Origin: Diadema setosum | Taxonomy: Eukaryota > Echinodermata > Echinoidea > Diadematoida > Diadematidae | Reading direction: 5' to 3' | DNA length: 64,000 bases | NCBI GenBank assembly: GCA_033980235.1 | Contig: CM067064.1 | Location: 7,058,501-7,122,500 of the forward strand | Part shown: in pieces, positions 5,702 to 62,800 of the stretch | How the letters are laid out: every line of letters starts with the position of its first letter | Position numbering within the stretch: the stretch's first letter is position 1 | Translations under genes and position numbers: made by a program | The notes under the pieces: model-generated | Databases searched by the model: none | What the model saw: only the letters and a program-made list of their open reading frames with translations | Told to the model about the DNA's origin: nothing

Positions 5702-8700
5702 CTGTCGGAATCAGCGAAAAAACAGAATAAAACAAAGCTCATAAAATGCAACGGCAGTAAATTGTTCCCACAATAAGATAACGGTCTCCTCTATTTCTGA
5801 ATTCTTACTCTCAAGAGATTAATCACATGATTACAAGAAAACATTATTAATATTACTATAAAAAAAAAATTGATACCAAAACTGGCTCAGCGTCATTTTT
5901 AAGCATTTTAAGGTAAGTCAATCATCAAATAGACCACACACACACACACACACACACAAAAAAAAAAAAAATGCTGTGATACCTCACTTGAACCATAACA
6001 AGGAATATTCTTGAAGTTATGATCATTGTGATCTTTGTTTTTAGCTGCTCTAGTCGCAATCATTTCAAATTAGTAACTCGTTATGCCATTAAACTCTCTT
6101 GAAAGGCATGATTATAGATTGCTTTATCATTTTACCAGATTATGTTGTATCATACATTGTATCTTGTATTCAGTTATGTATCCAATGTATATGTCTTAGC
6201 ATTGAAGTACCATGTCATACACGTATTTTATTTGTGTTTGAATAATGCAGAAATTAAATAAAACACCCAAAACAAAAAATATTAACGATAATGCCGATAT
6301 TGACGGCAGTGATAACAATATCGATCACGAAATATCATCAAGATGTCTACTTTAGTGCAAGCGGTTGCTCCATCAAATACCCACAGGGGCTTCCCCTTTA
6401 CTATCATCACAGATCTTCTAACTTCCAATTTTCTCACTACAGACAGAAAGAACACCAAGGGTAAAGCATCATGAATATTGGGATCGCCTCCCTTATCCGA
6501 GCTACCACATGCATCTAGAGCTCCCATTTAAGTAGGCATATAGGTCTATAGACATCGCCCAAAACATGTTCTGACTACATGTATTAGTGGGTAGTTTTAC
6601 CGTACTCAATTCTTTCTTATGCATGTCTATTGTGGTCCTGGAAAAAGACCCATACCCAATCTCGAAGTTTCGGCAAGCATGCTCTTCTGAGAACGGTAAG
6701 AACAGGGAAGTGATCACACCTCCGTGGCGTATTAGGGCAGTTACCCCCCGAGGACAACCCCCCCCCCCCCCCTCCCAGTTAATATTGGTCACTGATAAGG
6801 TTAGAGTAAAGATTAGGGTTAGGATGAGGTTAAGGACTAGATTTTGGGTTAGGGTTAGGATTAGGTTCTGGAAAAGGATTAGGGTTTAGCCGAGCGCGAC
6901 AGCGCAAGGCACTGTCGCACTCAGCTGGGCTCGCTTCGTTCGCCCCCATTCTCTTACCACCACACAACGAGATGTAGTTAGCAAAAATCTATCTTGCTGC
7001 GTGCTTCATGCAATAATCTAATGAAGAAGCAGCTTAAGGATGAAATTTTAAGAAGATAACGACAGGTCAAGCGCCATCAGAACAGTTCCGGTAAGCTGTG
7101 AGAAGGGTGCTTTGTATTGGAATTGGAAAAATAATTGGTAAAGGAATATGTATTATGTAAGTCTACGTTAAATGGCAATCATTTTCCATAGTAATCTGAT
7201 AGTGAAATCATCGAATAAAGAATCACAGAATAAACAATAAAGTGTTTGGTAGCTGGTAGTTATTATTTCTACTGCAGAACAGGGTACACTGAGCAATCAC
7301 TCCTTGACTGTGCAGTCACAGTCATGTAAAGGGGTAAAAAAAAAAATGAAAGAGAACGTGGTGATTCTCTGGTCCATGTAAAACGAAGCGAACGGTTGAC
7401 CTCTGCGTCTGTATAACGCTGCTAACAGGTTCCTGTAATGGTATGTGGATTCCAGACTTCCGATTCATGCTCTGGTTATGGTAAAGTAAAATATCGATCA
7501 CATTATGTTCTAGTCTATCCATGTATTCTGTGCACAACTGCCATCACTTACCGGTACATGAAGACGACGGCTACTATTATCAGCACGGCTAGGACGATGA
7601 CCACGAGAATGACTACCACACCAATAACGACATGTGGGCCATCCGGACCGTCATCTCCGTTTTCTGTCGAGATTGAAAAAAAAAAATCAAATCAAAAATA
7701 CATGTATTCATTTCACCATCTATGTCTTATATAAACAAAAGGAGTATTGACATGGCATTGTCGTAAAACGCGTCCTACGTGTTGTGGCTGAATACTCAGT
7801 TTGTTTGTATCTCTGTAGTATGTTATGTATGAGTGAGAGCGAGAAATAGAGAAAGAAGAGAGAGATACGAAGTATAGGCCTATGTAACAAATTTCATGAA
7901 TTTGATCGTCAAACGAAATTACATGCCAAAATATTCCATCAAAAGATCAATTTCTTACAATTTTGTGAAATATAATGCATTATGTGCCTTGAGTGTCATA
8001 GTAACACCTTAAATCAGGGTTTCACGCTCCTTCTTCTTTTTTTTTTGGGGGGGGGGGGGGCGGGAAATGGCTAACATTGCTCTTACGGCCTTCTTTGCAG
8101 GCTATTGGGCTTCCGATCCATTGTTTGTCCGGTCCGCAGTGCCACTCCACAGAATTGTTGCCGTTTTGACAAATGACAGCGATCACCTCCCCTTCCTTGA
8201 ACGATGCTTTGACGATGCTCATGTACGTGTTATGCGGCAGCACAGGTAGAACGCAGTTCAGTTCTTTCAGTTCAGTGGAAGAGAAACATGGGAAAGAAGA
8301 CATGTGTTAGTGTGAAATTTGCTCTTTGAATTTTTTTTTTTTTTAGGTGGCCCACATTATGACAGGGTCTTATCATTGCGCTCCTCGATACATTGATGGT
8401 TCAAAATCAGATGAATCTGCGTTCCAAACTCTTTGTTTTACAACCCAGTGCATTCAAGAACATTCATGGGTACACAATCACAGTTTACTTCTACATGCCT
8501 TATATTTTTTTCATGAAAGTGTTACGTAAAGAACTTGAGAAAAATAAGAGAAAAAAATTATACAAGCCTGTCACTCACTTCTGCCTGTGCAGACGACACC
8601 TGCATCCTCGAGGTGGGAACAATCATGTGTTGCAGAGTGAGGACAGTCCTTGAGGGACTGCTCGTTGCCTGTGCACGCCACATCGTCGTAATGGATGCTG

Positions 8701-9405
8701 CCGTACGATCGCGAGCCGAAGTAGCTGCCGGAAACGGCGCGCTTCGCCGTGCCGAAACCCAGCTCCCTGCAGACGACGGTTGCGTCTACCAAGTCCCATC
8801 CGTCATCGCACACAGTGCCCCATATGAAGTTCTTCAGCACTTCGACGCGACCCTCGAAGGGATTCGAACCGTCGACCAAACGAACTGGTATCATAGAAAA
8901 TGAGGACAGTTTAAGATAACAACGAACTTGCCTGTAATTACAGAGATTGAATTGTTATCATACAGTGTACTAGCAACAAAAACGGCTTATATTTATGTAT
9001 TACTTAGGCTAGCCTGCTCGCTGTTTATACGCAGTGTTATTTTTTATTTTATTTCATTTTTTTTTGCGCAAAAGATCCTATGGTCTTTTTTTTTCTTACT
9101 CCAATATCATCAGATATTCATCCTTACAACATTGTCAAGAGGACATCTGGTAGAAGGGAATTCTTCAAACCGAGGATCTGTGCTGTATACTTACGAGAGT
9201 CTGGTGCTTTAGAAATTAAACATATGAGCTACTTCCAAAGGGTGTGGATGTAACACATATTAACGCTACTGGCAAACTCTTTGCATTTGGAGGTCTACGA
9301 AAATCTCTCCGAACCGACACTGAACAGAAATATTCAACCTGATCTTAATCACCGAGCACGCCAGAGCACAAACTAAAGGACTGGTTAGAGTGGGGTAAAG
9401 GGTGT

Positions 9406-9436
<31 letters not shown>

Positions 9437-12400
9437 TAGCAAGGGGGCGCAAGGGTGTACGTGTACTTACTTGGTGCTGAGCAGACAACCCCGGCGTCGT
9501 TGTCGTGCGTGCAGTTATGCACCTCCACGCCGTTGTTCGGACAGAGGGCGATTGAGGACTCGTGACCGCGGCAGTCCAGGTTGTCCACGTAAATGGGTCC
9601 CGTCCCTTTGCCAAAGGTTGCGTTACCAGGGGCCTCCACGCCCGGCCCAAGGCCCAACTGACGGCACAAGACTCTCGAGTCTGATTTATCCCAGTTGTTG
9701 TCGCACACCGTGCCCCATGTGCCTTCCAGCTGAATCTCTATGCGGCCTTCGTACGGTGTGTTCCCGCCAACTAGGCGGAGAGTTATGTTGTTTTCTGAGA
9801 AAAATGTGTATAAGAAAGTATTTACATTCCGTTAACATGGTAATGGAAGAACATTAGGACCCCATGGAAGAATAGCCATGTCTTCGTAGACTGAGCTGAA
9901 TGGGCTATCCTACCGTGCATATTCGCTGCTTATTTTTTTTCTCTTGTTTCCTTTCCTTTTCCATATTTGATGCTTTCTATGTTTTAAGCATATATTCTTC
10001 TGTTGATCAAATGTTGTATATTGCTTGTCATACTTTTACTGTACTTTTTTTCTGCATGAATTTACGGTGAATAGATAAATCAAATCAAAACCATGGTAAC
10101 GCTCTGTGACTGCCATATGTTTTTAACATAATCTTTGTGCAGCTACTGTTTTTGATCTCACTGATATACACTAATTAAAGAAAGAATCTTATCTAGATAT
10201 GACTGGGACGTTTCTCACCCGGCAGGGAGCAGATGACGCCTGCGTCACGAGTGTGATCACACGTCGAGTTGGCTTGCAGGTCGAAACGGTTGCACTGCAC
10301 CAGTGAGCCCTCGTAGCCGCTACAACCGATATTCTCCGCGAGGATCGTACCCTTGCCCGGTCCGAAAAATGACCCCTTCTTGGCGGATGCGGCAAAGCCA
10401 TAGCTTAGCTGTCGGCAGGCAACCCGCGCCTCCTGCGAGTCCCAATCGGTGTCGCAAATTGTACCCCACTCGTTGTTGACGTACATTTCCACTCGGCCCT
10501 GGTAAGCATTCTTTCCACCAACGAGGCGTACTATGAAAACGAATTTACGAATCAGTATATGAGGTCATTGCTATAATTATAAACATTGACAATTTGATTT
10601 TAATCTTCATCATTAACCTCGGGTTTCAGTAAGTCATTAATTATCTTAACAAAATTTTCCTCATTATGCTATCCATAATGATATCAAGTGCAGCAGAAGT
10701 CATGACAATTACTGTTATTTTCGTATTATGGCTATCATCTTTATCAGGTGAAAACGTAGTACAAGAAGTGGAAGAGGCATAAGAAGAGAGAGCGAGAATG
10801 AAAAGTATAAGAAGTGGGAAGAGTAATACGAGGAAGAACAGGTGGAAAATATGAGAAAAGCAACTAATACTGAAACTTGCTTTTGGGCGCGCAGACGACA
10901 CCCGCGTCTTCGCTATGGCTGCAAGATGTCTGGTTTTCGTAAGGGCAGTCGAGCAGGTTTTCTTCGTCGCCCTCGCACCCGACGTTCTCCAAGTAGATGG
11001 GACCGAAACCTCGACCGAAGCTGGCGTACTTGCGAGCCTCCACGGCTTTACCCAGCCCGAGCTGACGGCAAACAACGGCCGCGTCGTTCAAGTCCCAACC
11101 GTTGTCGCACACCGTACCCCAAGAGTTATTCCGAGAGAGCTCCACGCGACCCTCGAAAATGTTGTTCCCGCCAACCAGACGAATGCCGGTTTTTGTGCCT
11201 GAAGCATGCGCAGGAACAGATGAAAATACAATGGAGTATAGTGCGTTATTATTTTGATGAAGTGTATCCTAAATCCGACATAGAAAGGAAGCTTGTAACT
11301 GGTATCTTTTGCAACACTTATGATAGGATTTAGTCCCAAATACATAAGACCAAGCAAAGTATGCGAAAAACATGGGGCCGAAATTTCTGCCGGATTGGTG
11401 GATAACACCTTTCGTGTTCTATAGCTAAACATGCCCTCGATTAGCGTTATGAAATATTCAACATGTGATGTCTAGGAAGTATCTCGACAAATACGTTGCC
11501 GTTATGTGGAAAGGTTCTTTTCCTATAATCTGATTCTGCATACCCCATGAGGAATAGAATTCAACACTGAGACATGAAGTGAACACACTTTGCCGACAGA
11601 ATGTTACCAGCTGCTTACAGCTTTGATTAATAATCATGAGCGTCCTACTTCAATAAAAAGATACCTTATGCAACTAGCTGATCTTCTTAAGATATACCTT
11701 TTACACTTTGCAGATAAAATGAGGCTTATATTTTCCCCGACGTTATACAATAGACAGAGAAATAAGTGGAATTATATCTCACTTGAAGCCTTGCAGACGG
11801 CACCCGCGTCACGCGAGTGCGGGCACGAGGGATCCCCATCCGGGACCTTTCGCGCCGCACACTGCGACAGTAGCTGGAAGTTGCTGTTGCACATCATATC
11901 GGTCATGTACACCCGGCCCTCACTTGGTGGTCCAAAGCGCGGATCGCCCACTGGGGCCTCGATGGCGGGTCCGAAGCCGAGCTGGGAGCAGACGATGTTG
12001 GCGTCGGCTAAGTCCCAACCATTACCGCAGACAGTCGTCCATTCGCCGTTGACTTCGATCTCGACTCGGCCCTCGGAAGAATTTCTGCCACCAGCCAGGT
12101 TCACTAGAGGAACAAAGGTTGCCATAAAGTTGAAGAACTTCTCCTAATCTACATGAGGGCTGGTGATTACGTGTTGCACGGGTATACTATGCCATTTCAT
12201 AGAAAAGCTGCTAAGCATCGTTCTCAGCTCAGACAGCAGGGAACAGAGCCATTGTTTAATACATAGTCCAGTCAAATACAGTGGATCTGACAACTTCTTT
12301 GTCTCAAATAACTCTTCGAACCTTCGTTTACTTTTCTATGAAGATGTGAGATATTATGTTTTCAGATTGATCCATGAATAAATTACTTAAGCTTGGCAGA

Positions 12401-15400
12401 AAAGATCATAAGATATGACAGAGACATTTGCAATATATCGTACGCCATATATGATACAAATAATGAATGGCCACGGGTATACCTGTACAAAATTTCGCAA
12501 GAGGTTAAAGTGTGAGAAGCCTCTGTAAACGGGAATAAAATCGGGCCAATTATAGCGCTCATCATAATGTAAAAGCGAAGTCCTGTCCCATTGCACAATA
12601 AAGGCAATTCACAATAGGAGATTTAGGCTTTTTCCAACCTTTCCTGCCTTGCTGGCTAGATTTCGTCCACTCCTGTGGACTTCTTCAGGCCAAGTGATTG
12701 GATGGAGCGATGCAACAATATTAGCTTTTGAAAGGAATTTTTGGCCAAGGAAAGTGAAAGAGTCCATCTGGATAAACAGAATCAAACCCACACTCAATAG
12801 GGATTCCTGATACAGCTTATGGCCAATCTTCGGTCCAATGATCACGAAACAAGGAGGCAGTGTCAGAGAAACGGTGCAATCACTTGACCTGTTTATGAAG
12901 AAGTCCACAGGAGTGGACGAAAGCTAGCCAGCAAGTCCGGAAAGTTTGGAAGAAGCCTTAATCTCATAAATGTACGATCTCCCCAACTGAGGAATGTTTT
13001 CTGCATCAAAGGCAATTCACGTTTCGTTTTGTACAACATATCGAACATTAAAAGTCCTTGTCCAAGCCAGGTCCTCCAAACAACAATGAAAGTTTCTACA
13101 GGTAATGCGAAGTGGATACTGCGCTATTAATGAAGAGCCTGTGGAAGAATGTAGGGGCCTACATGGTTAATGGGGTCATCGTGTGATATACAAAACCACA
13201 CGATCTCATTGTTTGCCCGCTGTGCAATGGTACTTTTTAGGGAATGTCATGATCTATTGCGATGGGCAGAGGTATACCAAACTGATATCAAGATTTCGGG
13301 GGCGTGGCGTTGTTTAAAACGAGAGGTATGTTATGTCAGCATACATAATTAAGATTCAGCACAGAGATCATCAGGACGTAAGTCACCTCATGACACAAGG
13401 ATTTGCGGTATTCACTAGTTTGTAGGGTTTTTATTTTCCCGATCATTTTTCAACTGCGCATGCACAGGTTAAGAACTTCAGAACTTTGCTTTCGCAAATT
13501 ATATGTGTGCTCACCTTTCGGCAGGCAGATCACACCGGCATCCTCCGAGTGACGGCAATTGTGCATTCCGACCCCACGGTGCTGACAGTCCAGAATGGAC
13601 GCTTCGCTGCCGTAGCATCGCGTGTCGTCGATGTGAATCGGGCCTGTGCCCGAGCCGAAGCGGGCATTTGTTGTCGCAGCAAAGACATCACCAAACCCTA
13701 GCTGCTTGCAGACGATCTGAAAGATGATTTATTAAAAGGACAACAAAGTATCACAACAAAGAAAACACAGGTATTAAAACGCCGCCGCTGACGTCATGGA
13801 CAGTAACTAATCAATTATTAGTTTAAAGACGGATGTAGACGCCTACATAAGTTCGTATTGTCCAGTATTAAACGCTCCCATTTTGATCTTAATCACTGTA
13901 TTTATCACACATTTAATGGCACATCTTCGTTACTTGTCTCTGAACGAGGAGAAGAAAAGTTAAGGCGGAGTAGGAGGGGGTAAGGACGAGACAGAGACAA
14001 GGAAGGATCATAATATCAAGAACTGTGGCACTGTCACTGGAAGATGGAAAAGGTAGGTATGATGGAAATGTCTGTATTAGTGAGCAAAGGCAGAATACAT
14101 CCATAGTAAAGGGGTATGGATGGATAGGGCGTGGTTGGGAGGAGGAAAGACGGGCGCCGGACAGGCAAACAAAAGGCACCGGATTGAAAATCATAACCAG
14201 AAAAGGGCCTTGGAGGATATTGGAAGGGGAGGGAAGGGATGCCGTCTATAATAAGAGGGAAAAGCATTCACGGAAATACTTCATAGTATATACTTTATAG
14301 TAAATAGTTTAGATTGGAAGCGATTTAGATGGTGACCCACTCAATAAGACCCACGATATAGTTTCCAGGTTCCCTGTGTCAGGTTTCCGAGCAGAATGGG
14401 GTTGTGTCCCTTGGCAAGGGACTATATCTGTCTTTGGCTCGTCCTCTGGAGGGAACTCAAAGCTGTGGCGCCTATGCTTTCTTGCTTTCAAACAATCATT
14501 GCATTGCATGGTATGTAGAACCAAACATGATATATAGTACGTACTCTCGCATCAGTAGTGTCCCAACTGTCGTCGCAAATGGTTCCCCAGACGTTGTTTA
14601 AGAACACTTCCACCCTGCCTTGGAATGGATTCCCCCCGTTGACGAGACGCACCAGCTGACTTGGTGCAGGGGTTGTCGTAGGGATAGGTGGCAAGGTTGC
14701 TTTTAGGAGGAGAAAAAAAATATAAAGATGGCTTAGACGTCTATAGAATCAGACCTGGGGCCCGTTTCATAAAACTTGTCATCAGTGACAACTGCCACAT
14801 TTCTATGACAAATTTGCTCTCAGCCAATCAGATGCAAGGATTTCAGTAGCTTGTCACATCTAATACAACTTGTCACTGATGACAAGTTTTATGAAACGGG
14901 CCCCTGGAATCCTCATCTTCATTTCTATTCCCATTTCACAAATATAGTGACTATGATAGCCAGTCTCAGAAAATGGTCTTAGCTTAATAATTACATTCAT
15001 ATAAATGGGAGGGCCAGAGATATCAATGGTGATAACTAACTACCTAAGTCATGATTATAATCGCACATAGACTGAGAATGATAATCCATGTGTGTGTGTG
15101 TGTGTGTGTGTGTGTGGTTGCAACATACAGAGTGTAGTGATTCGTATGTGTGACCTTGGAGTTGTAGCTTCATGGTGTGACGATGGACTTCTGGATATGC
15201 ATGAGTACTAACATTGTAATAAAAGTCATTATGGTCTGCTACACCAAGGGTTTGTACTCACATTGGTTTTATCACTGCTTCCTGACAGCCGTACGTATTA
15301 TTGATACCCAAGCATTGCCAAGACTACATTGATTCACCTTGGTCAAGTGGGACCTCGTAGGTAAAACGCCTTGTCCGAATATAAACACACTTGTCAGCCA

Positions 15401-17830
15401 GTGACAGAAAGAGAGAGAGAAGAGGGTAGGGAGGAACAAATAAATGATAAATGGAGCGAAGGTAATTTGGGGTGTTTGGCAAGTGATACTTACGTGGTAA
15501 ACCTGCGCAGACGACTCCGGCATCGTTCTCATGATGACAATCGCCCTCGGAAAAATTCCCAGTCGGACAGAACTCGAATCCGTACTCGTCGCCAGTGCAG
15601 AGTAGGTTCATCGAGAGGATCGTACCGAGACCCATGCCGTAAGCCGCCGTCGTCGATATCGCCGTCACATTGCCGAAGCCGAGCTGGCGACAAATCACCG
15701 ACCCATCTTCGAGATCGAAGTAAGCTCCGCAGAACGACCGCCAAGGCGACAAGGGCGAAGCGCGGGCTTCTACCCGCCCTTCGTTCGGCGCACTCCCACC
15801 CATCAGTCGAAGTTGGTAAGGCATTGGTGGAGCTACACGCGTGAGAGATGAGAGAGAGAGAGAAAAAAAAAACTTCTTATCGACATGTTTTCTGATCATT
15901 TTTTTTTTTGCATTACATTATTACATTTTTATAGCACCTTCTGGTAAGTGTACAAAATACTTACCGTAATGTAAAACAACAATATATCAGACGTGATAAG
16001 CTGTAATACATCAAATTCACAATCAACTGAAAGGACAGGGTGAAATCCCGTATGTCATTACTGAAAAAAAAATGGGATTTTATATATTATTCAAAGAATG
16101 AACTTTATGATTCAGATCATTTGTGGGAGAATTTATGAATTCCAAAGTTTGGGGTCGATGTACGAAAAGGAACAATTCCAACCCTTTTTGTGGGTCGATG
16201 TACGAAAAGGAACAATTCCCAATCCTTTGTGGGTCTTTGGAATAACTAAGGAACATTTATGTTGTGTTTCTTGTTTTTGAATAAGGAAACATTATCTTAC
16301 TCTGTATTTTATTCATCCATGCGGCTTCATTTTGGCAATCTTCTTGATATTCATTTTCATTACCATTTTCTGATGAAAATATCATATCATGTGTATTACC
16401 TTTTTTTGAAGAAATGCCAGTCATCACACATATTCTAAGCAATATAAACAGTCTATAAAAACACAAATTGTGAGTAATTGCAGAAGGAAACCACAACGTT
16501 CGTCGCATAGTGTCCATTATTCTATTTTATAAATAATACTTCTTCTTTTTTTTTTCCTTTTTTTTTTTTTTGGGGGGGGGGGGGGGGGGCTTCGTGTTTC
16601 AGGCCCAAACCATCAATTCGTAGAAACAACATTTGTGTGGCTTTATGTTGTATCTTTTCACTGTAATTGTTGATATTCGTACTAATATTTTGTAGAATAT
16701 GATAAGAGTTCCTTTATCATGTTAATCCTATTTTGGTCATACACCACTCTCCATCTCGGTTGAAGAATCATTATAAGCCTCTTAAAGACCTAATAAAATG
16801 GTTTAGGCATTTTTTTCTCATTGATGTAATAATATTAAATGTTAAATTCTAAGTAATTCTATGGTTGTGCGGGGTTTTTTACTGTTCTGAATTTTGTTCT
16901 ATATTTGTTAACATAATGGATACAATTTCCTCGGTTTTGGAAAACTTGCTATACTTTCACCGCATGCGGCGCACTATCACTTCTAAAGAACGGAGTCGTT
17001 AATCACGACCAGTCTAGCCGTAGCCAGCGAGCTAAGGCTATGCTAGCGCAGCGCAGCGCAGCGACAGCCGGCGCGCGGCCGGCGGCTGCACTGGCTAGCG
17101 CTGGCGGAGGAGCGAGCTAGCGAGCGCATAGCAGGTGCTGCGCTGCACTATTGTCATTGGCTAAGCCTTTAGACAAAAGAATATTTAATGAACTGTATTG
17201 GATTTAATACTGCCAATAATACAGATTACAACTGTGGTACGCTTGGATATCCATTATTTTCGGCGAACTCGTGAAATAGGCCCCACCACTGCGTGTCTGT
17301 ACTAAATACTACGGCGACTCGACTGTTTCAGCCCCACCGTGTGGCGTTCATCTCGGTAGGTAAGCACGGCGGTGGGGCTGCCTTCCACAGTGAATACGGC
17401 GAAATGACTTCATAATATGGCCCTCGGCTCGACTAATTTAACGGCCAATTTAACCATAAATACAACCCTACCTAACCCTAAACCCTAGGAGGACCTACCC
17501 TTGCTTCCTATAAACGCACGGGTACGGTGCACGCGTGACTGCGGTGGGGCCTGTTTCACTATAGCCCCACCACCACTGCGTGTCTGTACTAATACTACGG
17601 CGACTCGCCTGCTTTATAGGCCTAGACCTACTCGTGAATCCAGCCCCACCGTGGCATTCATCGGTAGATAAGCACGGCGTTTGGGCTTCCTTCCACAGTA
17701 TGATTTTTAGCATAAAACAAAAACTACTCGACCAAAATTGACGATCATTCTTGGTATCGTTTTTCTTAGAAAATGACGCATCTAAATTACTGATCATATT
17801 GCAGAAACTGACTATGGGAAACTGGTTAGG

Positions 17831-23147: not shown

Positions 23148-25670
23148 AGATAACACGCGACGTACTTTAATCTGTTTGTGACGTACTAGAAGTAAGTACT
23201 TCTCTGTTATGTCACGTGTCTCTCCATCTTTCCAACAATGAGAGGAAACAGACGTCTCGTAAGGAATTGCTTGCAGATTTTAAAGTTTTCTTTAGCTATG
23301 ACTAAGCTATAGACCGGCTTCTTATGCGTAACAGAAGAAGACAAAAAAGCAACAAAACATCACCATTGTGGAAAATCTGAAACATTTACATCATATATAA
23401 TAAATTCTATCTTTCTATGAATTATTTGATTTCAGAGTACACCAGTTGCGTAGAACCTCTGTCTATTCCTTCACAGGCCAACAACGTTGGAATAAACTAT
23501 CAATCTACGACAAGTGCACTATTAAAATCATACTTCAAAGACCCTATCTTAAAGGATTGGACGGCAAACAGATACCAATGTATGATAACCATAAAGGAAT
23601 TCATGATTATCCGGGTATGACACCACGACTTTCTCTTAACTTTAACAGTAATGTTGAGTAAAGAATGGTATGTGACCGTTATGTACAGAGGCATGGTAGA
23701 ATTGCTGGCATTAGAGTGCAGCTATCACCAATCCAAACGTCAGGGCCTTTAACTATGAAACCCAGACAGCGATGTACACCAACGAACCTTGCTAGTTCCT
23801 GTGGCGACAGCCTACTAGCGTAAACTTCAGAATATACTGCATATTTCCTGCATGCCGAAACTTTTATTCTGAAAAGTCGGGATGTGCCCCTCTGTCGACC
23901 TCATATTCTAACATGTACAAGGCAAAAAAAAAAAAAAACAACAACAACAACAACAACAAACAAACAAACTCTTAAATCAATCATAATTACAATAACTTTT
24001 GAAGGCCACACAGGAAAAAAAGCTCAACAAATACGATGCTCCGCTCAATTAACCCCATTAACCCTTCCGCACCACATTTATCAGTAATGTAAACAAGATG
24101 ACCCAACAACAATCACAAATGATGAAAAAGATGTTAAAAGTTTGAACGACTATGTCATGTGATAGGTTGATGGAAGTAAAGTTAAGTGGGACTAAACTGC
24201 AGTCTGGCATTGCAAGATGAATTCAACTTTGCATGGATTTGATATAAGGTATGTATACAATATTTCAATTACAATATGAAACAATATATAACAACCTATT
24301 TGATGTTCTACTTTCTACAAATCATTTTTTTTTTTAGTATGTAAAAGCAATAACTCGATCTATTATATCTCTTTGTCTGAATGTGCATTACCAGACAACC
24401 TTGTCTAACATTTTTCCTTTTCCCTGTTTGTTTGCTTTATTAAATCTGTTGCACTCGACTCATTAATTCTTGAATTTCATATGAATACTATTCATAAAAT
24501 ACGACATGTATTACTCAGCACAAAGAGAATAAAGGAAATTCTGGTGATTGATTGTGTTTCTTTAAAATGAGAGCAATAATGGCCGTAGGTCTACTGATTA
24601 TCATTTAAAAACTTGGATAACTCCGCATCAAAAATGTAGCATGCTTGATATGATCTTATGAGTGCATGGGGCATGATGTGCAAGGGGCATTGTGCGGAAT
24701 GGTAAAAAATTGTATTTTGCCATGGAATATGTACGTTGATGTTCGGACAAACTGGTGATTTGATTTCAATTTCATGATCACTCGCTATACGTAAAGCGGA
24801 ACTTTCAAAAGAGATCTAGATATTGCATACACAGAGGGGATGATTTCTAATCTTCTGTTGATTTTTGACTGGAAGGGGGGGGGGGGGGGGCATGGTGTCA
24901 AACATTAAATGTCATCCGAAGACAGCAACACAGAGAGGACACCTTTCTTTCTCGCGTTCATGATTGGATTAGTGGGGACTCCACAGACGTTCTCGTTATC
25001 GAAAATTCTTTACTGCAGGTCTTTAAATCTCATTTAATGCCTCGGTACCTTTGGCCATTGAGATTTCTTTCCGTCAGTAATAGCAAGGTTGATCTTCCAA
25101 GCGGAAACATATACCTCCCGACACTTTCACACTCCAACCACCAAAGGGCGTTACAGTGATGACACTAAAATCGGTGAAGCACTCCCCTCGTCGACGCCAT
25201 ACTCGAGCCCTGTTTCGTAAAGTTGTTCGTAAAGTTAAGCATAACTTTACGAACGACTGGAATATGAAGTGCCAATATGTGTGCCCATTTTTTCCAGTTA
25301 CGTTTTAACAAAGTACAACTGTATGACAATATTTCATCTACATGAGGGCAAAAATACACTTTCAACTAAAACGTGTGTTAACATTAAAGAATAATCATTA
25401 TCATCTGCAAATTTCAATTTTTGCTATTGAAATTAACAATTATTAGCAAACCCACTTGGCTTGCCATATGTGATCCTGGGATTGATATGGAAATTGCCCC
25501 CCCCCCCCCCATTTTTTAATCACTTACCTTAAAAGGTTACAAGACATGCTTGCTTACACTTTGATAAGAGGCACCCCCTCCCAGATTACATAACCCCTCC
25601 CTATTGGAGAATGGAAGAGTCTAAGGAGTTTGGGTGAGGAGAAGCAGTGGCAGGAAGTGACAGCAGCTTT

Positions 25671-25742
25671 TGTGCCATTCCATGCATAGATGCTGCTACC
25701 ACAACCAACGACTTGTTTCTCCTCATTCTTTCATCATTCTAG
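25671..25742 (+). repeat. R-like repeat copy 1, ending at a splice donor
   Basis: The 72-bp copy begins TGTGCCATTCC and ends ATTCTAG, directly followed by GTAAGT, a consensus 5' splice site. It lies 202 bp from the LTR start, where transcription would plausibly begin. Confidence 0.85.
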
Positions 25743-27525
25743 GTAAGTCTCTTCTCATTCTGATTTCATATATTTGTAATGTTATTACAATAAGGAATGT
25801 TATTCATTTAACATTGAAATGTGTATTCTTGGGAATACACTGACATATGTTCATTTCAAGGATAAGATTTATTTTGAGAGAACACTTCAGTCAGAAAACA
25901 TTGTATGGCATAGTAACTATGTGGGTATATGTTAATTATTGAGTCTGAGTGTTGCTACTATGCTAATTCTGATTTACCAGTGATGAATGAATATGTATCT
26001 GGTGGTGGTTTGTTACACATGATGAGATATACATTCTGAGTGTGTAATTTGTATATAATTTGTACATGGGTTTTGAGGATGTCTAGTTTGTAGTTAATGT
26101 ATATAGAGACCTAGAAGCAAGTTTTGGATGTGAATGTACATTTCACCCTGCAATACAGGTGTACACACATAGTTTATACCATAGGCCACTGGCTTGAGAA
26201 CTGGTCCTTTGTTTCATGCCTAGAGGCAGCATTTAGAGTACCAGTACATTTATCACTCTGTCCATGGATGGGGTCTAGGCTTTTGTTCTGTGTGAGAGAC
26301 TGAATAGATGCAGTCACTGACTAGGCAGAGATTAAGAGTTTTATGGTCAGTGTATGGGACTGCCAACCTGTGTAGCTAGTCTGAATTATTCAGACCAGCT
26401 ACAAGTGAGGAAATATTTAACTACTATCCATGTATATAGTTGTATGTCATTTGTGTTTTTATCTGCCAAGATCTTCAGGTACATTATATAGATATGTTAT
26501 TGATGTTAATTCACAGATTTTAGAGTAGGTTTTGTTAGTAGGGATACATTGATAGAAAGAATGACTAGAGTGTATGTATATAGCTGTGTGGTCTGCGTTA
26601 TAGACTATCAAGGGGACAGGAAGTGCTGTATGTTAGTACAGTCTCCAGCGAGATGTTGTCCCTCCAGCTCACAGAGGAGAGCAAACTTACAGGTAGGAGG
26701 ATAAGGGAAGTTTAATGTATACATGAAGGCAAGGGCCGTGGTGCTCTTTGTTAAGAAAAGAGTTTATAGACTCCCTCAGTTTATGCTTGCTGGCCCTGTA
26801 CTAGTGAGTGAGTTGTTGTAGAAATTTATCTGAAGAAAGATTATCAAGTAGAAGAGTTAGTTATTCCCAATGTTCCCTTTATGGGAAAAACGTTGGATGA
26901 ACTAGTTAGGAGAATTTGTTAATGGTTGTGGAATGAATATAGTTGTTTGAATTATAGTTTAGCTTCATACTTTAGTATGAAGACTCCTACTAAAGGGGGT
27001 CATTTTATTGGGAATTATTATATGAGAAGACTGTTTGATTAGGCAAACTCTACAATTAATATTTAGAATTATCTCGCTCTATAAGGAAAAGGCCAGATGC
27101 GTTCATACATTTCAAACTGATAAGAATTGATATTATTCGGAAGAAAGATTTGAACAGATATGAGACTTGTATTGTAATGAGAATTCGGCACAGGCAGGAA
27201 TCACTAGTTACTTGTATAAAGAAGATATTAGAATATATTATGAATATATCATTGATGAAAAGGGAAGGAGAATGAAATCAGATAATAGTTTGTTAGAATT
27301 ACAGTCATTGACATTCAGATATTATACTGATTATTGATTACGAGTATCAGTAAGCTCATGTACTCTGTGGGAACACTGTTTATGACAGATTTGTATACAG
27401 TTACATCGAGCTCGTGTGTATTTATGTGTTAAACTGAGAACTGATTATTATTGTTTTGTTACACATTGATTGCTCTGCAGTGTTTGTCAATACTTAATTG
27501 TCTGATTGTGACTTTTTATGAGAGC

Positions 27526-27531
27526 AATAAA
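27526..27531 (+). promoter_or_regulatory. AATAAA poly(A) signal in the LTR
   Basis: AATAAA lies immediately before repeat copy 2. Cleavage 10-30 nt downstream would fall inside copy 2, as expected for the end of an R region. Confidence 0.65.
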
Positions 27532-27603
27532 TGTGCCATTCCATGCATAGATGCTGCTACCACAACCAACGACTTGTTTCTCCTCATTCTTTCATCATTC
27601 TAG
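27532..27603 (+). repeat. R-like repeat copy 2, ending in an acceptor-like tract
   Basis: Identical over 72 bp to 25671-25742. Its 3' end is a pyrimidine tract (TTTCTCCTCATTCTTTCATC) closing in TCTAG, a good 3' splice-site sequence. It is followed by the 28-bp LTR end, CACCCCGTAC onward. Confidence 0.85.
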
Positions 27604-27690
27604 CACCCCGTACCCCTACAGGGGTGTTACACATATTTAAGTCGTTCGTAAAGTTGTGCGTAACTTTACGAACAGCTTTATGAAACAGGG

Positions 27691-47954: not shown

Positions 47955-49490
47955 TGACGAGATAAGAAGACGAGAAGACAGGTTAAATATCGAGAAGCCG
48001 AGTTATTGCAACTCGGCAAGTCGACTTGCTTGGATCAAGAAGACAAGATGACAAGTTGTTGAAACTCAGTAAGTCGACTCGTTTGGGACAAGAAGACATG
48101 ATAACGAGTTGTTGAAACTCGGAAAGTCGACTTGCTTTGGACAAGAAGTCAAGATGACAAGTTGTTGAAACTCGGCAAGTCGACTCGTTTGGGACAAGAA
48201 GTCAAGAAGGCAAGTTGTTGAAACTCGGCAAGTCGACTCGTTTGGGACAAGAAGTCAAGATGACAAGTTGTTGAAACTCGGCAAGTCGACTCGTTTGGGA
48301 CAAGAAGTCAAGATGACAAGTTGTTGAAACTCGGCAAGTCGACTCGTTTGGGACAAGAAGTCAAGATGACAAGTTGTTGAAACTCGGCAAGTCGACTCGT
48401 TTGGGACAAGAAATCAAGATGACAAGTTGTTGAAACTCGGCAAGTCGACTCGTTTGGGACAAGAAGACATGATAACGAGTTGTTGAAACTCAGAATGTCG
48501 ACTTGCTTTGGACAAGAAGTCAAGATGACAAGTTGTTGAAACTCGGCAAGTCGACTCGTTTGGGACAAGAAGTCAAGATGACAAGTTGTTGAAACTCGGC
48601 AAGTCGACTCGTTTGGAACAAGAAGACATGATAACGAGTTGTTGAAACTCGGAAAGTCGACTTGCTTTGGACAAGAAGTCAAGATGACAAGTTGTTGAAA
48701 CTCGGCAAGTCGACTCGTTTGGGACAAAAAGTCAAGATGACAAGTTGTTGAAACTCGGCAAGTCGACTCGTTTGGGACAAGAAGTCAAGATGACAAGTTG
48801 TTGAAACTCGGCAAGTCGACTTGTTTGGGACAAGAAGTCAAGATGACAAGTTGTTGAAACTCGGCAAGTCGACTCGTTTGGGACAAGAAATCAAGATGAC
48901 AAGTTGTTGAAACTCGGCAAGTCGACTCGTTTTGGACAAGAAGACATGATAACGAGTTGTTGAAACTCGGAAAGTCGACTTGCTTTGGACAAGAAGTCAA
49001 GATGACAAGTTGTTGAAACTCGGCAAGTCGACTCGTTTGGGACAAGAAGTCAAGATGACAAGTTGTTGAAACTCGGCAAGTCGACTCGTTTGGGACAAGA
49101 AGTCAAGATGACAAGTTGTTGAAACTCGGAAAGTCGACTTGCTTTGGACAAGAAGTCAAGATGACAAGTTGTTGAAACTCGGCAAGTCGACTTGTTTGGG
49201 AAAAGAAGACATGATAACGAGTTGTTGAAACTCGGAATGTCGACTTGCTTGGGACAAGACGTCAAATGACAAGTTGTTGAAACTCGGCAAGTCGACTTGT
49301 TTTGGACGAGAAGACAAAATGCCGAGTTGTCAAAACACGACAAGTACGTCGACTTGTTTTGGAAAAGAAAACAAATTGGTTAGTTAGTGGAACAGAAAAG
49401 TCGACTTGTTGCGGACAAAGAGACAAGTCAACGAGTGGTAGGAATTTGTTTAGGACAAGAAATCAAGGTGACAAGTTGTTTATCGACATT
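47955..49490. repeat. 53-bp satellite array (about 25 units)
   Basis: Units repeat in the order GACAAGTTGTTGAAACTCGG, CAAGTCGACTCGTTTGGGAC, AAGAAGTCAAGAT, with degenerate units at both edges. Two subtypes alternate irregularly: the common one with GTCAAGATGAC, and one with GACATGATAACGAG plus GGAAAGTCGACTTGC. Each unit has the palindrome AGTCGACT. The minus strand stays open across much of the array with a 53-residue period (3 x 53 bp), giving long repetitive frames that I do not regard as genes. Confidence 0.95.
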
Positions 49491-55888: not shown

Positions 55889-56030
55889 TATATATATGTG
55901 GGCAAGCCCACATATTGCTAAGATATTAGCAAGAGGTAACCCCTCCAGAGATTGACCCTGGCACCCCATCTTCGAATGGAAGAGTCCAACACTTTCTTTA
56001 GGGTTGTTATCTCCTCTGCGGGGTGAAAGC

Positions 56031-56088
56031 ATTCAAGACTTGCTTTTCACCACAAGAAGTCTGCCATCTCTCTCTCTCCATCTAAGGT
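56031..56088 (+). repeat. R-like repeat copy 1 of the gypsy LTR
   Basis: The 58-bp copy begins ATTCAAGACTTGC and contains CATCTAAG|GTGGGT, a usable 5' splice site at 56087. It lies 134 bp from the LTR start, comparable to the 202 bp in the solo LTR. Confidence 0.85.
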
Positions 56089-58251
56089 GGGTTCAAACAT
56101 TTTATGGTATATTTGCTACAGTTACTTGGTAAAGATTTTAATAGTGTGCAACTAATATCATCAGAAGTAGACATTTTATCCTGAGTAGATGCTATTGAAG
56201 GTATACAAAAGAATGGATTCCAAGAGAGCGTTCTACGCAGGTTACAAAAGTTGAGACAAAAATGGCAAGCCTGAGAAATTCTACAAATTCGATAAATGCA
56301 GCCGAGTTGGCCATTACCAATATAGTTTCATTGTGAATAGCCAGCAGATTCATTGCTTTAAAAATGGACCACTTGGTCAGTTAAGCTCTACGTGTCTTGC
56401 GATTGTCTCATGAAAATAATGTCCTTGGTTATATTGTATACTCTGTAAATTGACGAAGGAAACGGGACAATTATGTCAGTTATCCAATATGTTTCACAAA
56501 CTATCCAATAACTCAGTAAAGCTAAAACTACAGGGTATATAGTGTTGCATATTGTCATAAGAAAAATGCAGTACTCCATGAGGCGTACAGGAGGGTATAT
56601 AATGTGGGCCTGTTCAATAATAATTTTATTCTAGAAAATCTTGCGAGTGTTATGTGTGTCTGTGCATGTAGTGATGGTATGCATGTGGCTAGTGTAATGA
56701 TGTGGCTCAATGTGCACTGCAATGTCAGGACATAATTATAAGATTGTAGAATTAGACGCTGTAGTGAAGAAAAGTCAGTGTACGCTTCATTCTAACAGAC
56801 CCCATCAAGACAAAGAAATCTCAGTGGTCTCCAAAGAAAGGTACGCAGTGGAAAAAAATAACAGTTTGATGGGCTAGGGGTACTTTCACACGGGAAGACT
56901 AACACACCACATGAGACAGCGTATGCGGGAATGTCCCTCGAGGGAATTTGTTGAGACTGGTGTTGAATGTTATGTGTGTGTAGTGTAGATACTGTGTGCC
57001 ATAATTTGACAATCCAGGTTGAGGGATGAGTAATAGATGACTGTCTCACACAATTCTAAGTTAGATACTCCTCTTTAAGTTTTGAAGTGTTACAGTATAT
57101 ATATGATAATACAGGATTGTATTTTCGCTAATGAAATTGAGTTGTGTGTTGTGGGTGTCAGCAGAAATAAGTAGGGTTATCATTAGGTATACGAGTTTGA
57201 TGGGGGAGACGGAACTAGAATTAGAGTGTGAACACTCCTCCCACTGCCGGAGTGAAAACCACCGGTATGCACACCAGCGAGCCAGTGGTTCTCGCTCCAG
57301 CCCTGTGGTCGGATGTTGATGTGATGTGGTCACTCCTCTCCTGTCTCTCGCCAAGGTTGAGATAACTCTGTACCTCGGCAGTGTAGATAGCTTGCTACTT
57401 TCTTCCCCCTGCCTAAACAAAGTCTTTGTTTTAAGTTTTGGACACCACTTGGGAAAGTGAGAGAGTTTATCTCCTCCTTTTGAGGAGCCATCTCGAAGAG
57501 TGCTGGGGAAAAGAGAGGAGATGTTTTATTTTATTTTTAGTTCAGGAAGACAAGTTAGAAAAGAACCAGTCAGTGCAGATTGGTAGTAGGAATTTACAAC
57601 AAATGTCAGTGTTATTATATGTAGCCTGAAAGAATCCAGTCATTTGAGTCATCAAATTGTTTTGAAGTGAGAAGGAATAAGTTTAAGGGCTATGTCCATA
57701 TGGATTTTTATTTGTTTTGGAACAGACTGGCTTAGACAAAAGAACAAACATTTTTAATTAGTTACATAAGGAGTGGGCAGGATAAATTGATTGGAATAAT
57801 GTTGAAGTTAGATTAAGTGAGTTGTAATTTTATGACTAATCATGATTTGTTTATTTGTAGCGCCGATGAATTATAGGCATTGATATGGATGTAACATAGA
57901 ACTGCATTCTTACCTATCACACAGCTCTAGGGGATGTAATCGGTAATAGAGATAGGAAAGGGATCAGTGAGAGATTATGTTATAAATCACATACCTAATG
58001 AGTAACCTCTTTACAGCTAAATAAAGAAGGGTGTATTAATTTAGTTGTTTACAGCTGGGAATAGGGTAGGCAGACAAATAACAGAGTATATCACATAAAT
58101 GAGCAGTTCTCATTCGTAATTACAGGCTGGCAGCACTAAGCAGATGTTGTGTAAACACGGTGTGCTGACATAGAGCCGTAATTGTTGTACATGATTTTGT
58201 TTTTAAGTTGTTTGTGTTTTATCATTTGAGTATTCATCTGGTCATTAACGG

Positions 58252-58257
58252 AATAAA
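58252..58257 (+). promoter_or_regulatory. AATAAA poly(A) signal in the gypsy LTR
   Basis: AATAAA precedes copy 2 by two bases. The GAATAAAAGA context could also act as a weak TATA-like box for a start in copy 2, so its role is not settled. Confidence 0.6.
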
Positions 58258-58259
58258 AG

Positions 58260-58317
58260 ATTCAAGACTTGCTTTTCACCACAAGAAGTCTGCCATCTCT
58301 CTCTCTCCATCTAAGGT
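58260..58317 (+). repeat. R-like repeat copy 2 of the gypsy LTR
   Basis: Identical over 58 bp to 56031-56088. Its end, a CTCTCTCTCTCC tract closing in ATCTAAG at 58315, reads as a 3' splice site. The 33 bp after the shared segment end the LTR. Confidence 0.85.
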
Positions 58318-58350
58318 CTACGAGTGCGAATGAGCGAGAGGTGGGCTACA

Positions 58351-58526
58351 ATTCTGGAGGCACTGCCCGGATGCTGCTAGGTGGTTCGAAGTTTCTAACC
58401 CTCATTACCGGCAAACCACCTATGCAGTAATCCACTACAATTCAGTTGCCCAAGAAGCCTGACACTGCGGCTGCGCTGATACGACTACTGACGCCATTAA
58501 AGCAGGCCTGATTAGTAAACTGGAAA
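58351..58526 (+). other. gypsy leader with candidate primer-binding site
   Basis: TGGAGGCACTGCCC at 58355-58368 starts with the TGG expected for pairing with a tRNA 3' CCA, four bases after the LTR end. I could not assign the tRNA. The remainder is the untranslated leader before the gag ATG. Confidence 0.5.
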
Positions 58527-59849
58527 ATGGAGAGCTTCGACGAGGTCCAGAAGGAAGCCCTTGCTCGACTTGCATTAGCCAGTGAAGAGGACCTGAAACG
58601 CGTGGCTGAGGAAATAGGTATCAGCACAACGGAGAGGGCCAAGGCTGAGGGCAGAGGCAAACTGGGACTCCAACGAGCGGTCCGCCGACACCTGGATAGC
58701 GATGACCTCGCCGATGCTGATGATGGAGGTAAGGCTGTGTGGGTGAAGGTGGTCAGTTTGTTGGTGAGTGTGACGAGGGTAGGAAATGAGACAGAGGCAG
58801 AAACCGGCCCAACAAAAACAGAGAATTCAGGTTCCCCAGAGGAGACACAGGGAAATTCTCCATCGGAGGAGAGAGAAACAAAGAAGACACCTTACGTAGG
58901 GGAGGCGAAGGGCCCAATGTTAGCAACATGGAGAAAGGAATTCCGGATCAATGGTCAGGTGGGAGAGCCTGGCCAGAAGGACAAGTTGTCCTTCGTCAGC
59001 TTGGCTCGGCAGGTAGAGCACGGGATTCGGAAGGGGTTCTCTGAAGAGGAAGTCACAGAAGCAGTAGTACGTGCAGTGAGTCCTGGGCTACGATTAAGGT
59101 CCTACCTTGAAGGACGAACAGACCTTTCTCTGCCGGATCTGAGACGAATCCTGAGAGCTCACTATCGGGAGAAAGATGCCACGGCAGTTTTTCAAGAACT
59201 CTCAACGGCCTCCCAGGGTCACAAGGAAGCTGCCCATGACTTTGTATTAAGGGCCCTGGACCTAAAACAGAAGGTGTTGTTCGCCTCCCAGGAAGCAGGA
59301 GCTGGGGTTACGTATGACCCCAGCCAAGTACAACGGATGGCATTGAGGTCCATCTCTACAGGCATAGCAAATGAGGCGGTACAGGTGGAGATGCGACCTC
59401 ATCTACAGAATGAAGATATTTGTGATGAGGAACTGCTGGAGCTTCTGACCGCTGCAGTCGAGCATGAAGCAGAGCGGGCTCACAAGCTGAAACCCAGGGG
59501 GGTAAGAGCAGCAAGTGTAGAGGCCACGGCTGTAAGGACCGAAGAACAGGCACACCCATCCAAGACCAACTCTGCTAAGACCACCAACCTCAACCTAAGT
59601 GAGCTGGCGGCAAGCATCCAGGCCATTGTGAAGGCCGAGCTCAGCAACCTGCGTGCCGAACCCCAACCAAACAAAGCACAGCAGCGAAGGGAAAGAGGTT
59701 GTGTTGCCTGCCGGAAAGCTGGTACAGGCAATTCCTGTGATCACTGCTTCCGATGTGGTAGCAGTGAACACTACTTGCGGGGTTGCCGTGCCAGGAAGCA
59801 ACAGGGACAGGGAAATGCTCAAGGGTTACAGGAGAGGGACGCCCAGTAA
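58527..59849 (+). CDS. gypsy gag: capsid/nucleocapsid polyprotein
   Basis: A 440-codon open frame beginning [15 protein letters not shown], 177 bp after the LTR. Gag forms the virus-like particle that packages the element's RNA. The N-terminal region is charged and helical in character. The middle (about residues 130-310) resembles a retrotransposon capsid, with [11 protein letters not shown] and a helix-rich composition. The C-terminus has a zinc knuckle [14 protein letters not shown] (C-x2-C-x4-H-x4-C), preceded by another Cys pair (CVACRKAG). The frame is uninterrupted, suggesting recent activity. Gag ends TAA at 59847-59849 and overlaps pol by 82 nt. The element belongs to the Metaviridae-type retrotransposons. 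I see no evidence of a cellular (domesticated) role. Confidence 0.9.
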
Positions 59850-62800
59850 CCTGTTCAGACGAAACGTCCCAATCCCCAGCTTCTCAGGTAACAAACCACT
59901 TCAACATTTCATCATCACCAGACAGCAGAAAACAGAGAGAGGTTGTCCATTTAGTAGGTCGCAAGTGCCTGGTGGCTTGCAGCTTCAACCAACAACCTAC
60001 TACAGCGCTATGGGATACTGGAGCCCAAGTTTCCCTAGTTTCCAAGGAGTGGCTTGACAGAAATTTGCCGGATGTTCCCAACCGTCCCTGGACAGAAATT
60101 ATCGAGGGGGAACCCTTAAAATTGTCTGCGGCAAACGGAAGTATTATTCCATACTGTGGATGGGTTGAGATCAGCCTACAAGTGCCTGGGGACGCAACAG
60201 CTGCTCAATCCCTTCAAGTACCCCTTCTAGTGACAATGGAGACGCTCGAACATCCTATCCTTGGGTATAACGTCATCGAAGCCCTTGCTAAAGGTCAGTC
60301 GGCACAACTGAGTAGATTACTCCCACATGCCAAGAAGTCGACAATAAACCAGTTGGTTTCACTGCTCAGTTTGCCTAGTGATGGCGAAATATGCCAAGCG
60401 TACACTTGCCGCAATGGTGAAGTTATTCCCGCGGGACAGACCAGGCTAGTTAGATGCAGGAGACCAAATGCCATGGCTCAGGAAACAACCGTCTTCTTCG
60501 AACCCTTGGAATCTCCATGTCTACCTGACGGTCTTACACCAAACTGCTCTCCGGTGGACATACGAGGGGGAAGATTTATGACCTTTGTTGTTCCTGTCTC
60601 GAATGACACCACTCACGACATACTGCTGCCTGGCAGGACGCATCTAGGAAGGCTAGTCCCTCTGCGCACTATCCTCCCCGCAGACGTTCTCCAAGAAGCA
60701 GACATTAAGGTCTCCTCAGTAGCCAACTCTACGACAGACTCCAGCAGACCACACTCAAACATGGATGACACCTGGATACCGCCAGTGGATCTTTCTCATC
60801 TACCTGAGCCACAGCGCAAGTTAGCGGAGAAGGTTCTGGTGGAGGAAGCAGAGGCATTTGCCAGGAATGACCAGGACCTTGGGTGTATCCCCTCGCTACA
60901 AATGCATCTCACTCTGAATGACCCATCCCCTGTGCAGAAGACCTATATGGGTGTCCCACCCCCGCTGATGAAGGAGGTCAAGGAGTACCTGCGGGACTTG
61001 ATCAGTCGCGGATGGATTTCGAAGTCCCAGTCACCCTACTCTTCCCCAATCGTTTGTGTAAGGAAGAAAGATGGGACTTTGAGGCTTTGCGTCGACTATC
61101 GACAATTAAATCAAAGGACTGTGGCGGACAGACAACCAATCCCGCGGATCCAAGACACTCTAGACACCCTTGGTGGTAACAGCTGGTTTTCCACCCTCGA
61201 CCAAGGGAAAGCATACCACCAAGGGTTCATGGACCTGGAAAGTCGCCCTCTCACCGCATTCATCACCCCCTGGGGACTGTATGAATGGGTGCGAATTCCA
61301 TTCGGCTTGAAAAACGCGCCTGCAGCATTCCAACGCTGCATGGAGTCTTGCCTAGAAGGGTTGAACAACGAGATCTGCGTGACCTATTTGGACGACATCC
61401 TTGTCTACAGTAGTACATTCGAGGAACATGTCAACAGGTTGAAACAAGTGCTCCAAGCTGCAAAGAGGCATGGTATGAAATTGAGGGCAGCAAAGTGTCA
61501 CTTGTTTCAACGGGAAGTGAAATACCTTGGACGAATAGTATCGGCGGAAGGACATCGACCTGACCCATGTGATACAGTGGCAGTTTTGCAGCTCAAGGAG
61601 AAGACCCCTCGTACAGTAGGTGACATCCGAAAGACCATGGGACTCCTGGGGTACTACAGGAGATACATACCTGATTTCTCCAAGCTTGCCAAGCCAATAT
61701 ATGACCTGTTGTCCGTACCTCAAGCCAAACCTCCACCCACGACCCAGGCCAAATCCAAACTAAAGAGGAAGGCACAAGTCCCATCTCGCACCCCAGTCAC
61801 ATGGACTCCGTTCCATCAAGAGCGCCTCGAAAACCTGGTTGACCGACTTGTCCAGCCTCCTGTGATGGCATTTCCTGACTATGAACAGCCATTTATTGTT
61901 CACACAGATGCATCTCAGGAGGGGCTTGGAGCAGTCTTATACCAGCGACAAGAAGGAAGACTCAGGGTTATCTCCTATTCAAGAACACTGACGCCAGCTG
62001 AGCTTAACTACCACCTCCATTCAGGGAAGCTAGAATTTCTGGCGTTGAAGTGGTCTGTGTGCGATAAATTTCGGGACTATCTCTACTATGCTCCATCATT
62101 TGTTGTGTACACAGACAACAACCCCCTCACATACGTTATGTCCTCGGCAAAATTGAATGCCACAGGTCAGAGATGGGTGGCGGAATTGGCCGATTTCAAC
62201 TTCACCATCAAGTACCGCCCAGGAAGGTCAAACACAGATGCAGACACCCTGTCCAGGATACCTTTGGACATGGAAAGGTACATGACCAAATGCTCCCAGG
62301 AGGCCCCTGCTGGTCTCGCTGTGAAGGCCATCTTGCAAGCTGTAGAAGAGACACCCTTGACCCTGTTGGCTTCTGTGTGCACCAGCAACCAAGTGGATCC
62401 TGAACCCAGTGAGAGAGGTATACAAGAGGTGACCACAGAAGACATGGTGGAGGCTCAGAAGAGTGATCCCTTGCTTGGACAGGTCAGGAAGTTGAAGGAG
62501 CGAAACGAGATGCCAACCTCAGCAACCTGGAAGAGGGCGGCAAAAGAGATGCGACCCTTCCTCCGAGAGTTAAGCCAAATGAAGATCAACTCGGATGGGA
62601 TCCTCTGTAGGGAAACGGCACAGCATATGCAGGTAGTTCTTCCCACCAAGTTCCGGGGCCGGGCGATCCAGGAAATCCACGAGAAGATGGGACATCTTGG
62701 AACGGACCGTGTACTAGAACTTGCTAGACAGAGATTCTATTGGCCACATATGCAGCGTGAAGTGGAGCACCACATCAAAAACAAATGCAGCTGTGTGATC

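Follow-up and report, generated by a model that had tools for sequence, protein, structure and literature searches.

Why should a long terminal repeat (LTR) carry the same 72-bp segment twice, once directly in front of a splice-donor-like motif and once directly behind a polyadenylation (poly(A)) signal? This question is raised by a solo LTR at positions 25469-27631 (plus strand, as are all features of the two LTR elements described here) of a 64,000-nt stretch of the Diadema setosum genome (assembly GCA_033980235.1, contig CM067064.1, positions 7,058,501 to 7,122,500; hereafter the window). LTR elements face the problem that a poly(A) signal has to be passed over in one LTR while its identical counterpart has to be used in the second, and the layout described here suggests that splicing of an intron-like LTR segment between two copies of the repeat region (R) might be a built-in step of element copying. 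Judging from the sequence, we consider it highly probable that this is a spliceable LTR of a Ty3/gypsy-type clade, in which transcription would start at R copy 1, splicing would occur in the 5' LTR only, poly(A) addition in the 3' LTR would take place inside copy 2, and this copy would be rewritten. The initial annotation of the stretch had proposed such a model, which very likely remains the best fit among the readings weighed below.

The LTR belongs to a family that we term F1 (subfamily A) and has family matches at other loci. It has TGT..ACA ends, with the termini TGTGATCC at 25469 and GTGTTACA at 27631, and since these ends are flanked on both sides by the target-site duplication CATA (25465-25468 and 27632-27635), the segment 25469-27631 is a solo LTR. 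Its U3 region (25469-25670) contains the promoter candidate GAATGGAAGAGTC, and the two R copies follow at 25671-25742 and 27532-27603, as first annotated, with 72 bp, 0 mismatches and a spacing of 1861 bp (window self-comparison, E 4.6e-32); a 35-bp piece of R has exactly 2 matches in the window, with 0 expected from 100 shuffles. Copy 1, the proposed first exon, abuts the putative donor GTAAGT at 25743-25748. Copy 2 stands right after AATAAA (27526-27531), the sole such signal on the plus strand of the solo LTR, and ends in a pyrimidine-rich stretch and TAG, after which the 28-nt U5 (27604-27631) begins. The proposed GT-AG intron would thus span 25743-27603, with its acceptor AG at 27602-27603, and poly(A) cleavage would fall in the first part of copy 2. 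Scored with a splice-site matrix, the GT at 25743 ranks first among the 155 GT sites of the solo LTR, and the AG at 27603 second among 169 AG sites, behind the identical string that ends copy 1. The end of copy 1 together with the donor (25728-25748; 56072-56092 in the second element of the window, family F2) reads pyrimidine tract, AG, GT and resembles a recursive splice site, or zero-length exon. A 59-nt inverted repeat, 90% complementary, flanks the solo LTR (25208-25266 and 27632-27690), apparently a small inverted-repeat element that took up the LTR at the inner edge of its right arm.

A search of the host genome (885.7 Mb, 96 contigs) with the solo LTR returned at least 31 match rows, around which 20 regions and then 6 more were fetched. 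Both R copies were present in 12/12 LTR loci with both regions found (L025, L033-L036, L039-L044, L047), representing nine insertions, three of them LTR pairs; copy 2 of L041 is present in degraded form. A single R region was covered by the fetched stretch at L037, L045, L046, L048 and L050, and the pattern search found no copy-1 end at L038. Copy 1 is followed by GTAAG in 13/14 F1 rows (ATAAG in L042), and AATAAA precedes copy 2 in 14/15, the exception being L041. The F1 solo LTR has no coding part, and the family is linked to pol by reverse transcriptase (RT) matches between LTR pairs on C19 and C2. Target duplications of 4 bp were read as CATA in the window, GTGT on C19, TTTA on C2 and CTTC at L041; the flanks do not match at L035/L036 (CAAG/CAAC) and L043 (TTTA/CATA).

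The same layout is found in F2, whose 5' LTR lies at 55897-58350 and whose 3' LTR, outside the window at C6:7123650-7126102, differs from it by two substitutions and one gap. First seen as a 63-bp near-identical pair in the window self-comparison (56026-56088 and 58256-58317), its R has a 56-nt core at 56031-56086, followed by GTGGGT (GTGAGT in the 3' LTR), and an identical copy 2 at 58260-58315, preceded by AATAAA at 58252-58257 and followed by a 35-nt U5 (58316-58350). The donor has the top score among the 189 GT sites of this LTR. GAATGGAAGAGTC is common to the F1 and F2 LTRs, whose U3 regions are related (0/200 shuffles gave as good a U3 match), the introns are of borderline similarity (1/40), R has no detectable relation (22/200) and U5 is unrelated (40/200). 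At a further locus, L064 (G000:C10:17059000-17064200), an F2 LTR has its R2-U5 end present four times, a local amplification. Downstream of the 5' LTR, a candidate primer-binding site, TGGAGGCACTGCCCGGAT, stands at 58355-58372, and the same string is also found 3' of F1 LTRs; a TGG-starting string is common to the 3' flanks of F1, F2 and F3 LTRs, and no tRNA was matched to it. An open gag frame (58512-59849), with gag itself at 58527-59849 and without a Pfam match, overlaps a pol frame (59768-64000) that is open to the window end. Pfam places RVT_1, RT_RNaseH, Integrase_H2C2 and rve in pol in that order, with protease matches below the Pfam cut-off, so that the element has the protease, RT, RNase H, integrase order of Ty3/gypsy. 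By record, the named relatives of F2 gag include Lytechinus pictus, Holothuria, Patiria and fish.

How widely the layout recurs was surveyed with the F2 RT as query, which gave at least 88 rows (86/2229 candidates scored). Among the matches listed, 38 rows in 36 places reached at least 60% identity, and 21 of these 36 close-clade places were examined, namely two F2, two A, one B (the second F1 subfamily), the C18 element and 15 newly fetched 5' regions. The paired-R layout was present in 19/21, and the other 2/21 carry precise intron-less fusions of R to U5. In the 15 new regions, the duplicate was seen in the 5' region in 12 and only in the 3' LTR in 2 (L089 and L090, where copy 1 of the 5' LTR lies outside the fetched stretch), and the remaining one has fused LTRs of 299 bp (L076/L091). 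Thirteen of the 50 distant rows, at 44-49% identity among the matches listed, were also fetched. Here family F9 has the layout in two members, L084 (in its 3' LTR too) and L100; L085 and L088, in which the LTR extent was seen, have no repeat of at least 24 nt, and no repeat was seen in the other 8 regions, in which no LTR limits were recognised. In L098 (G000:C10; 1782-2978 on the minus strand of that region), two exactly matching 90-bp segments lie 1107 bp apart, with CAG/GTAAGC and CAG borders. As neither AATAAA at copy 2 nor an LTR end was seen there, this locus may be a variant of the layout or something else and was excluded from the counts.

In total, ten subfamilies of the host genome have the layout, with an R of 56-72 nt and a spacing of 1659-2517 in one representative each (L061 for F2, as the window 5' LTR has GTGGGT). 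The R copies have 0 mismatches in nine representatives and 2 in F1B, AATAAA ends -1 to 5 nt 5' of copy 2 in 10/10, no AATAAA lies within 25 nt 5' of copy 1 in 10/10, and the last 20 nt of R hold 14-17 pyrimidines. Because the scan placed the R end by AG/GT(A or G)A, the donors there are partly given by construction; an unanchored repeat search that made no use of the donor gave the same R ends, at AG/GT, for F3-F9, and in F2 the match extends 2 nt past AG because U5 also begins with GT. Gapped R identity between families is 53-75%, and 83% between F1A and F1B, with F1 versus F2 the only pair tested against shuffles. In the RT tree, F1-F8 form a single clade (100/100) and F9 falls among other lineages.

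Do the two copies evolve together? The initial annotation had argued that copy 2 is overwritten by copy 1 in every cycle, and the two subfamilies of F1 bear on this claim. Over the 66-nt R core from ATTC to AG, the two copies of an LTR are 1.0% apart in A (3 LTRs) and 2.4% apart in B (5 LTRs, without L041), and A and B differ by 19.3% in copy 1, 19.4% in copy 2 and 19.3% across copies; elsewhere the subfamilies differ by 16-18% in U3 and the intron ends and by 1.8% in U5. Since R has diverged by 19% between A and B and by 1.0-2.4% within an LTR, the copies evolve in concert, and they do so up to the splice-like boundary. The comparison suggested in the initial annotation, of copies in the same LTR with those of different LTRs, has the outcome predicted there. 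In 8 insertions (one LTR each, L041 dropped), the copies match at 518/528 core positions, at 42/48 positions just 5' of ATTC and at 11/48 in the next 6 nt upstream (-12..-7), and past AG they match at 59/252 positions over 28 nt (9 insertions). A copy-2-specific variant, GTATGTC, stands upstream of ATTC in L039/L040, L044 and L047. The rewritten stretch, and hence the usual RNA 5' end, thus probably begins at or near ATTC, which in the window is 25677 and not the annotated 25671. Three core differences between copies are common to both LTRs of an element, two in L033/L034 and one in L039/L040. Copy 1 looks derived at both L033/L034 sites, and in L039/L040 it has the less common base, which is also present in L050 and L055. 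These very few sites fit a copy 2 that would inherit the copy 1 of the 5' LTR and so lag one cycle behind. At base -1, copy 2 of F1 has G in 4/15 (L033, L034, L045 and the degraded L041), T in 1/15 (L042) and C in 10/15, and copy 1 has C in 14/14 rows; F2 has G at copy 2 and C at copy 1, and F3 an identical base at both. These bases give no more than a hint of a cap trace at copy 2.

The mechanism that we favour would operate as follows. Transcription would begin at copy 1, and splicing of the 5' LTR RNA would use the GT behind copy 1 as donor and the AG ending copy 2 as acceptor, thus removing the 5' AATAAA and leaving a leader of R, U5 and primer-binding site. In the 3' LTR, cleavage would occur inside copy 2, upstream of the AG, so that the intron would be retained. 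Strong-stop DNA (R-U5) made from the spliced 5' end would then anneal to the start of copy 2 at the RNA 3' end and prime copying of the intron, copy 1 and U3, by which the LTR would be rebuilt and copy 2 rewritten, at first-strand transfer, from the copy 1 of the 5' LTR. The narrow range of R lengths might reflect a double demand, in that cleavage some 10-30 nt past AATAAA would have to drop the acceptor and R would have to carry its own pyrimidine tract and AG; the latter would explain why copy 1 ends in AG/GTAAGT, like a recursive splice site. Cap proximity and U1 would be expected to favour the 5' donor, U1 in the way it does in foamy virus (PMC3694450). For a foamy-like RNA switch hiding the 3' donor, folding gave no consistent support, predicted donor accessibility in 6 LTRs having no consistent 5'/3' difference.

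Were the strong-stop DNA to anneal to copy 1 instead, an intron-less LTR would result, and such fused LTRs were found in F1 (L049/L057 on C21, L051/L055 and L052/L056 on C20, the latter with a mutated junction, and the pair L053/L054 on C18), in F2 (L066 and the more diverged L067) and in F5 (L076/L091). Their U3-R runs into U5 at the predicted junction or within a very short distance of it, and AATAAA is absent from 3/3 checked (L053, L066, L076). In the F1 tree the fused LTRs are nested among intron-bearing ones, requiring at least three changes, and they therefore arise repeatedly. Both LTRs of the F5 element are fused and ACTT stands on both sides, so that fusion preceded integration there. 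The initial annotation had expected that members without copy 1 or the donor would speak against it; members without copy 2 and the donor do exist, and these are the nested intron-less fusions. Compatible with them are strong-stop transfer onto copy 1, read-through of a 3' LTR that is then spliced, and recombination, and by themselves the fused LTRs do not prove splicing.

Could the same observations be explained without splicing? With a conventional short R at copy 2, the RNA would start there, the poly(A) signal would lie in U3 as in Rous sarcoma virus (RSV) and mouse mammary tumour virus (MMTV), and copy 1 would be a functionless duplicate within U3. The AATAAA directly 5' of copy 2 does resemble the placement in RSV, MMTV and human T-cell leukaemia virus type 1 (HTLV-1), as given in the consulted excerpt of PMC3694450. 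Such a copy 1 should drift freely, yet A and B have diverged jointly in both copies, and AG/GT borders come with the recurring layout, for which reasons we regard this explanation as improbable. We find it similarly hard to credit that the copies are kept alike by gene conversion or by template jumping of RT from one direct repeat to the other, with the splice-like borders merely marking the repeat ends. Direct repeats do recombine and the fused LTRs resemble recombination products, but repeat ends at AG/GT in families with unrelated R, as found by the unanchored search, and an AATAAA at copy 2 only are left unexplained. Very improbable, finally, is an original intron-less form into which the intron was inserted later. 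In its favour are elements with an open RT frame whose fused LTRs measure about 300 bp (C18 and C2:11681620), but it is opposed by the nested position of fused LTRs in the F1 tree, by the absence of AATAAA from the three checked and by the small share of fused forms among the close-clade elements examined (2/21).

Several points weigh against a spliceable LTR. The start site, splicing, poly(A) choice and transfer route are deduced from sequence, the folding predictions above do not account for the neglect of the 3' donor, and the fused LTRs could also come from recombination between R1 and R2 or from template jumping. Within the F2 intron, the AGs at 57540 and 57545 outscore the proposed acceptor, and the F2 5' LTR has an extra AATAAA at 58020; one F3 copy (L070) has GATAAA for AATAAA. 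Given the place of F9 apart in the RT tree, the layout needs at least two changes as a label on that tree, and two origins, losses and LTR exchange are all compatible with its distribution.

Among known systems, the foamy virus LTR is similar in that a donor near the cap precedes the LTR poly(A) signal; there, according to the consulted excerpt of PMC3694450, the major splice donor lies in R upstream of the poly(A) signal, and U1 binding to it suppresses the 5' poly(A) site independently of splicing. In contrast, donor and acceptor here lie within one LTR and are bounded by the R copies. We know of no second R copy or acceptor within a foamy virus LTR. RSV, MMTV and HTLV-1 likewise have a poly(A) signal immediately 5' of the R in which the RNA ends, but in that source it stands upstream of the sole start site, whereas here R is present twice and the proposed start is the other R copy, some 1.7-2.5 kb further upstream. 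Penelope-like elements are also retroelements able to keep introns through retrotransposition (PMC3846280, as excerpted), but theirs is a GIY-YIG nuclease with pseudo-LTRs, and the F2 element has integrase domains in place of such a nuclease, and true LTRs. From Ty3/gypsy elements, with which it shares the pol order, the two LTRs (the F2 pair) and the 4-bp target duplications, the present clade differs in its interrupted LTR, in which an intron-like segment separates two R copies. No description of a paired-R spliceable LTR was recognised in the open-access full-text literature, from titles and abstract starts, subscription journals and repeat databases being outside the scope of that search, and the novelty of the layout is thus provisional. 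Searches for relatives by RT and gag in viral contigs and by gag in genome contigs gave pattern matches, none of which passed verification by tblastn; the 24 matches of a U3-motif pattern in viral contigs were put down to chance in view of the motif length.

Elsewhere in the window, the minus strand of 8571-15914 has several exon-like frames, of which four were scanned and all match SRCR domains, an array of tandem repeats spaced about 53 bp apart, with one frame open, lies at 47989-49436, and a tRNA-Leu (aag) gene is predicted at 2029-2110.

In our estimation it is likely that a diverse clade of LTR retrotransposons depends on pre-mRNA splicing as an obligatory step of its replication, with the R-U5 end for strand transfer arising solely from the spliceosomal joining of copy 1 to U5, and that copy 2 is a DNA record of splicing, rewritten at each transposition. 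To the three retroviral answers to the two-LTR poly(A) problem and the foamy one, as counted in PMC3694450, this would add a further solution, of repeated origin or repeatedly passed between lineages. If true, only one of the two LTRs would have its poly(A) signal excised by splicing, and splicing would be part of the replication mechanism; a terminal repeat would come through reverse transcription with its intron, owing to the different processing of the two RNA ends, and the genome itself would show, at the borders of the copies, where RNA 5' ends and splice junctions lie.

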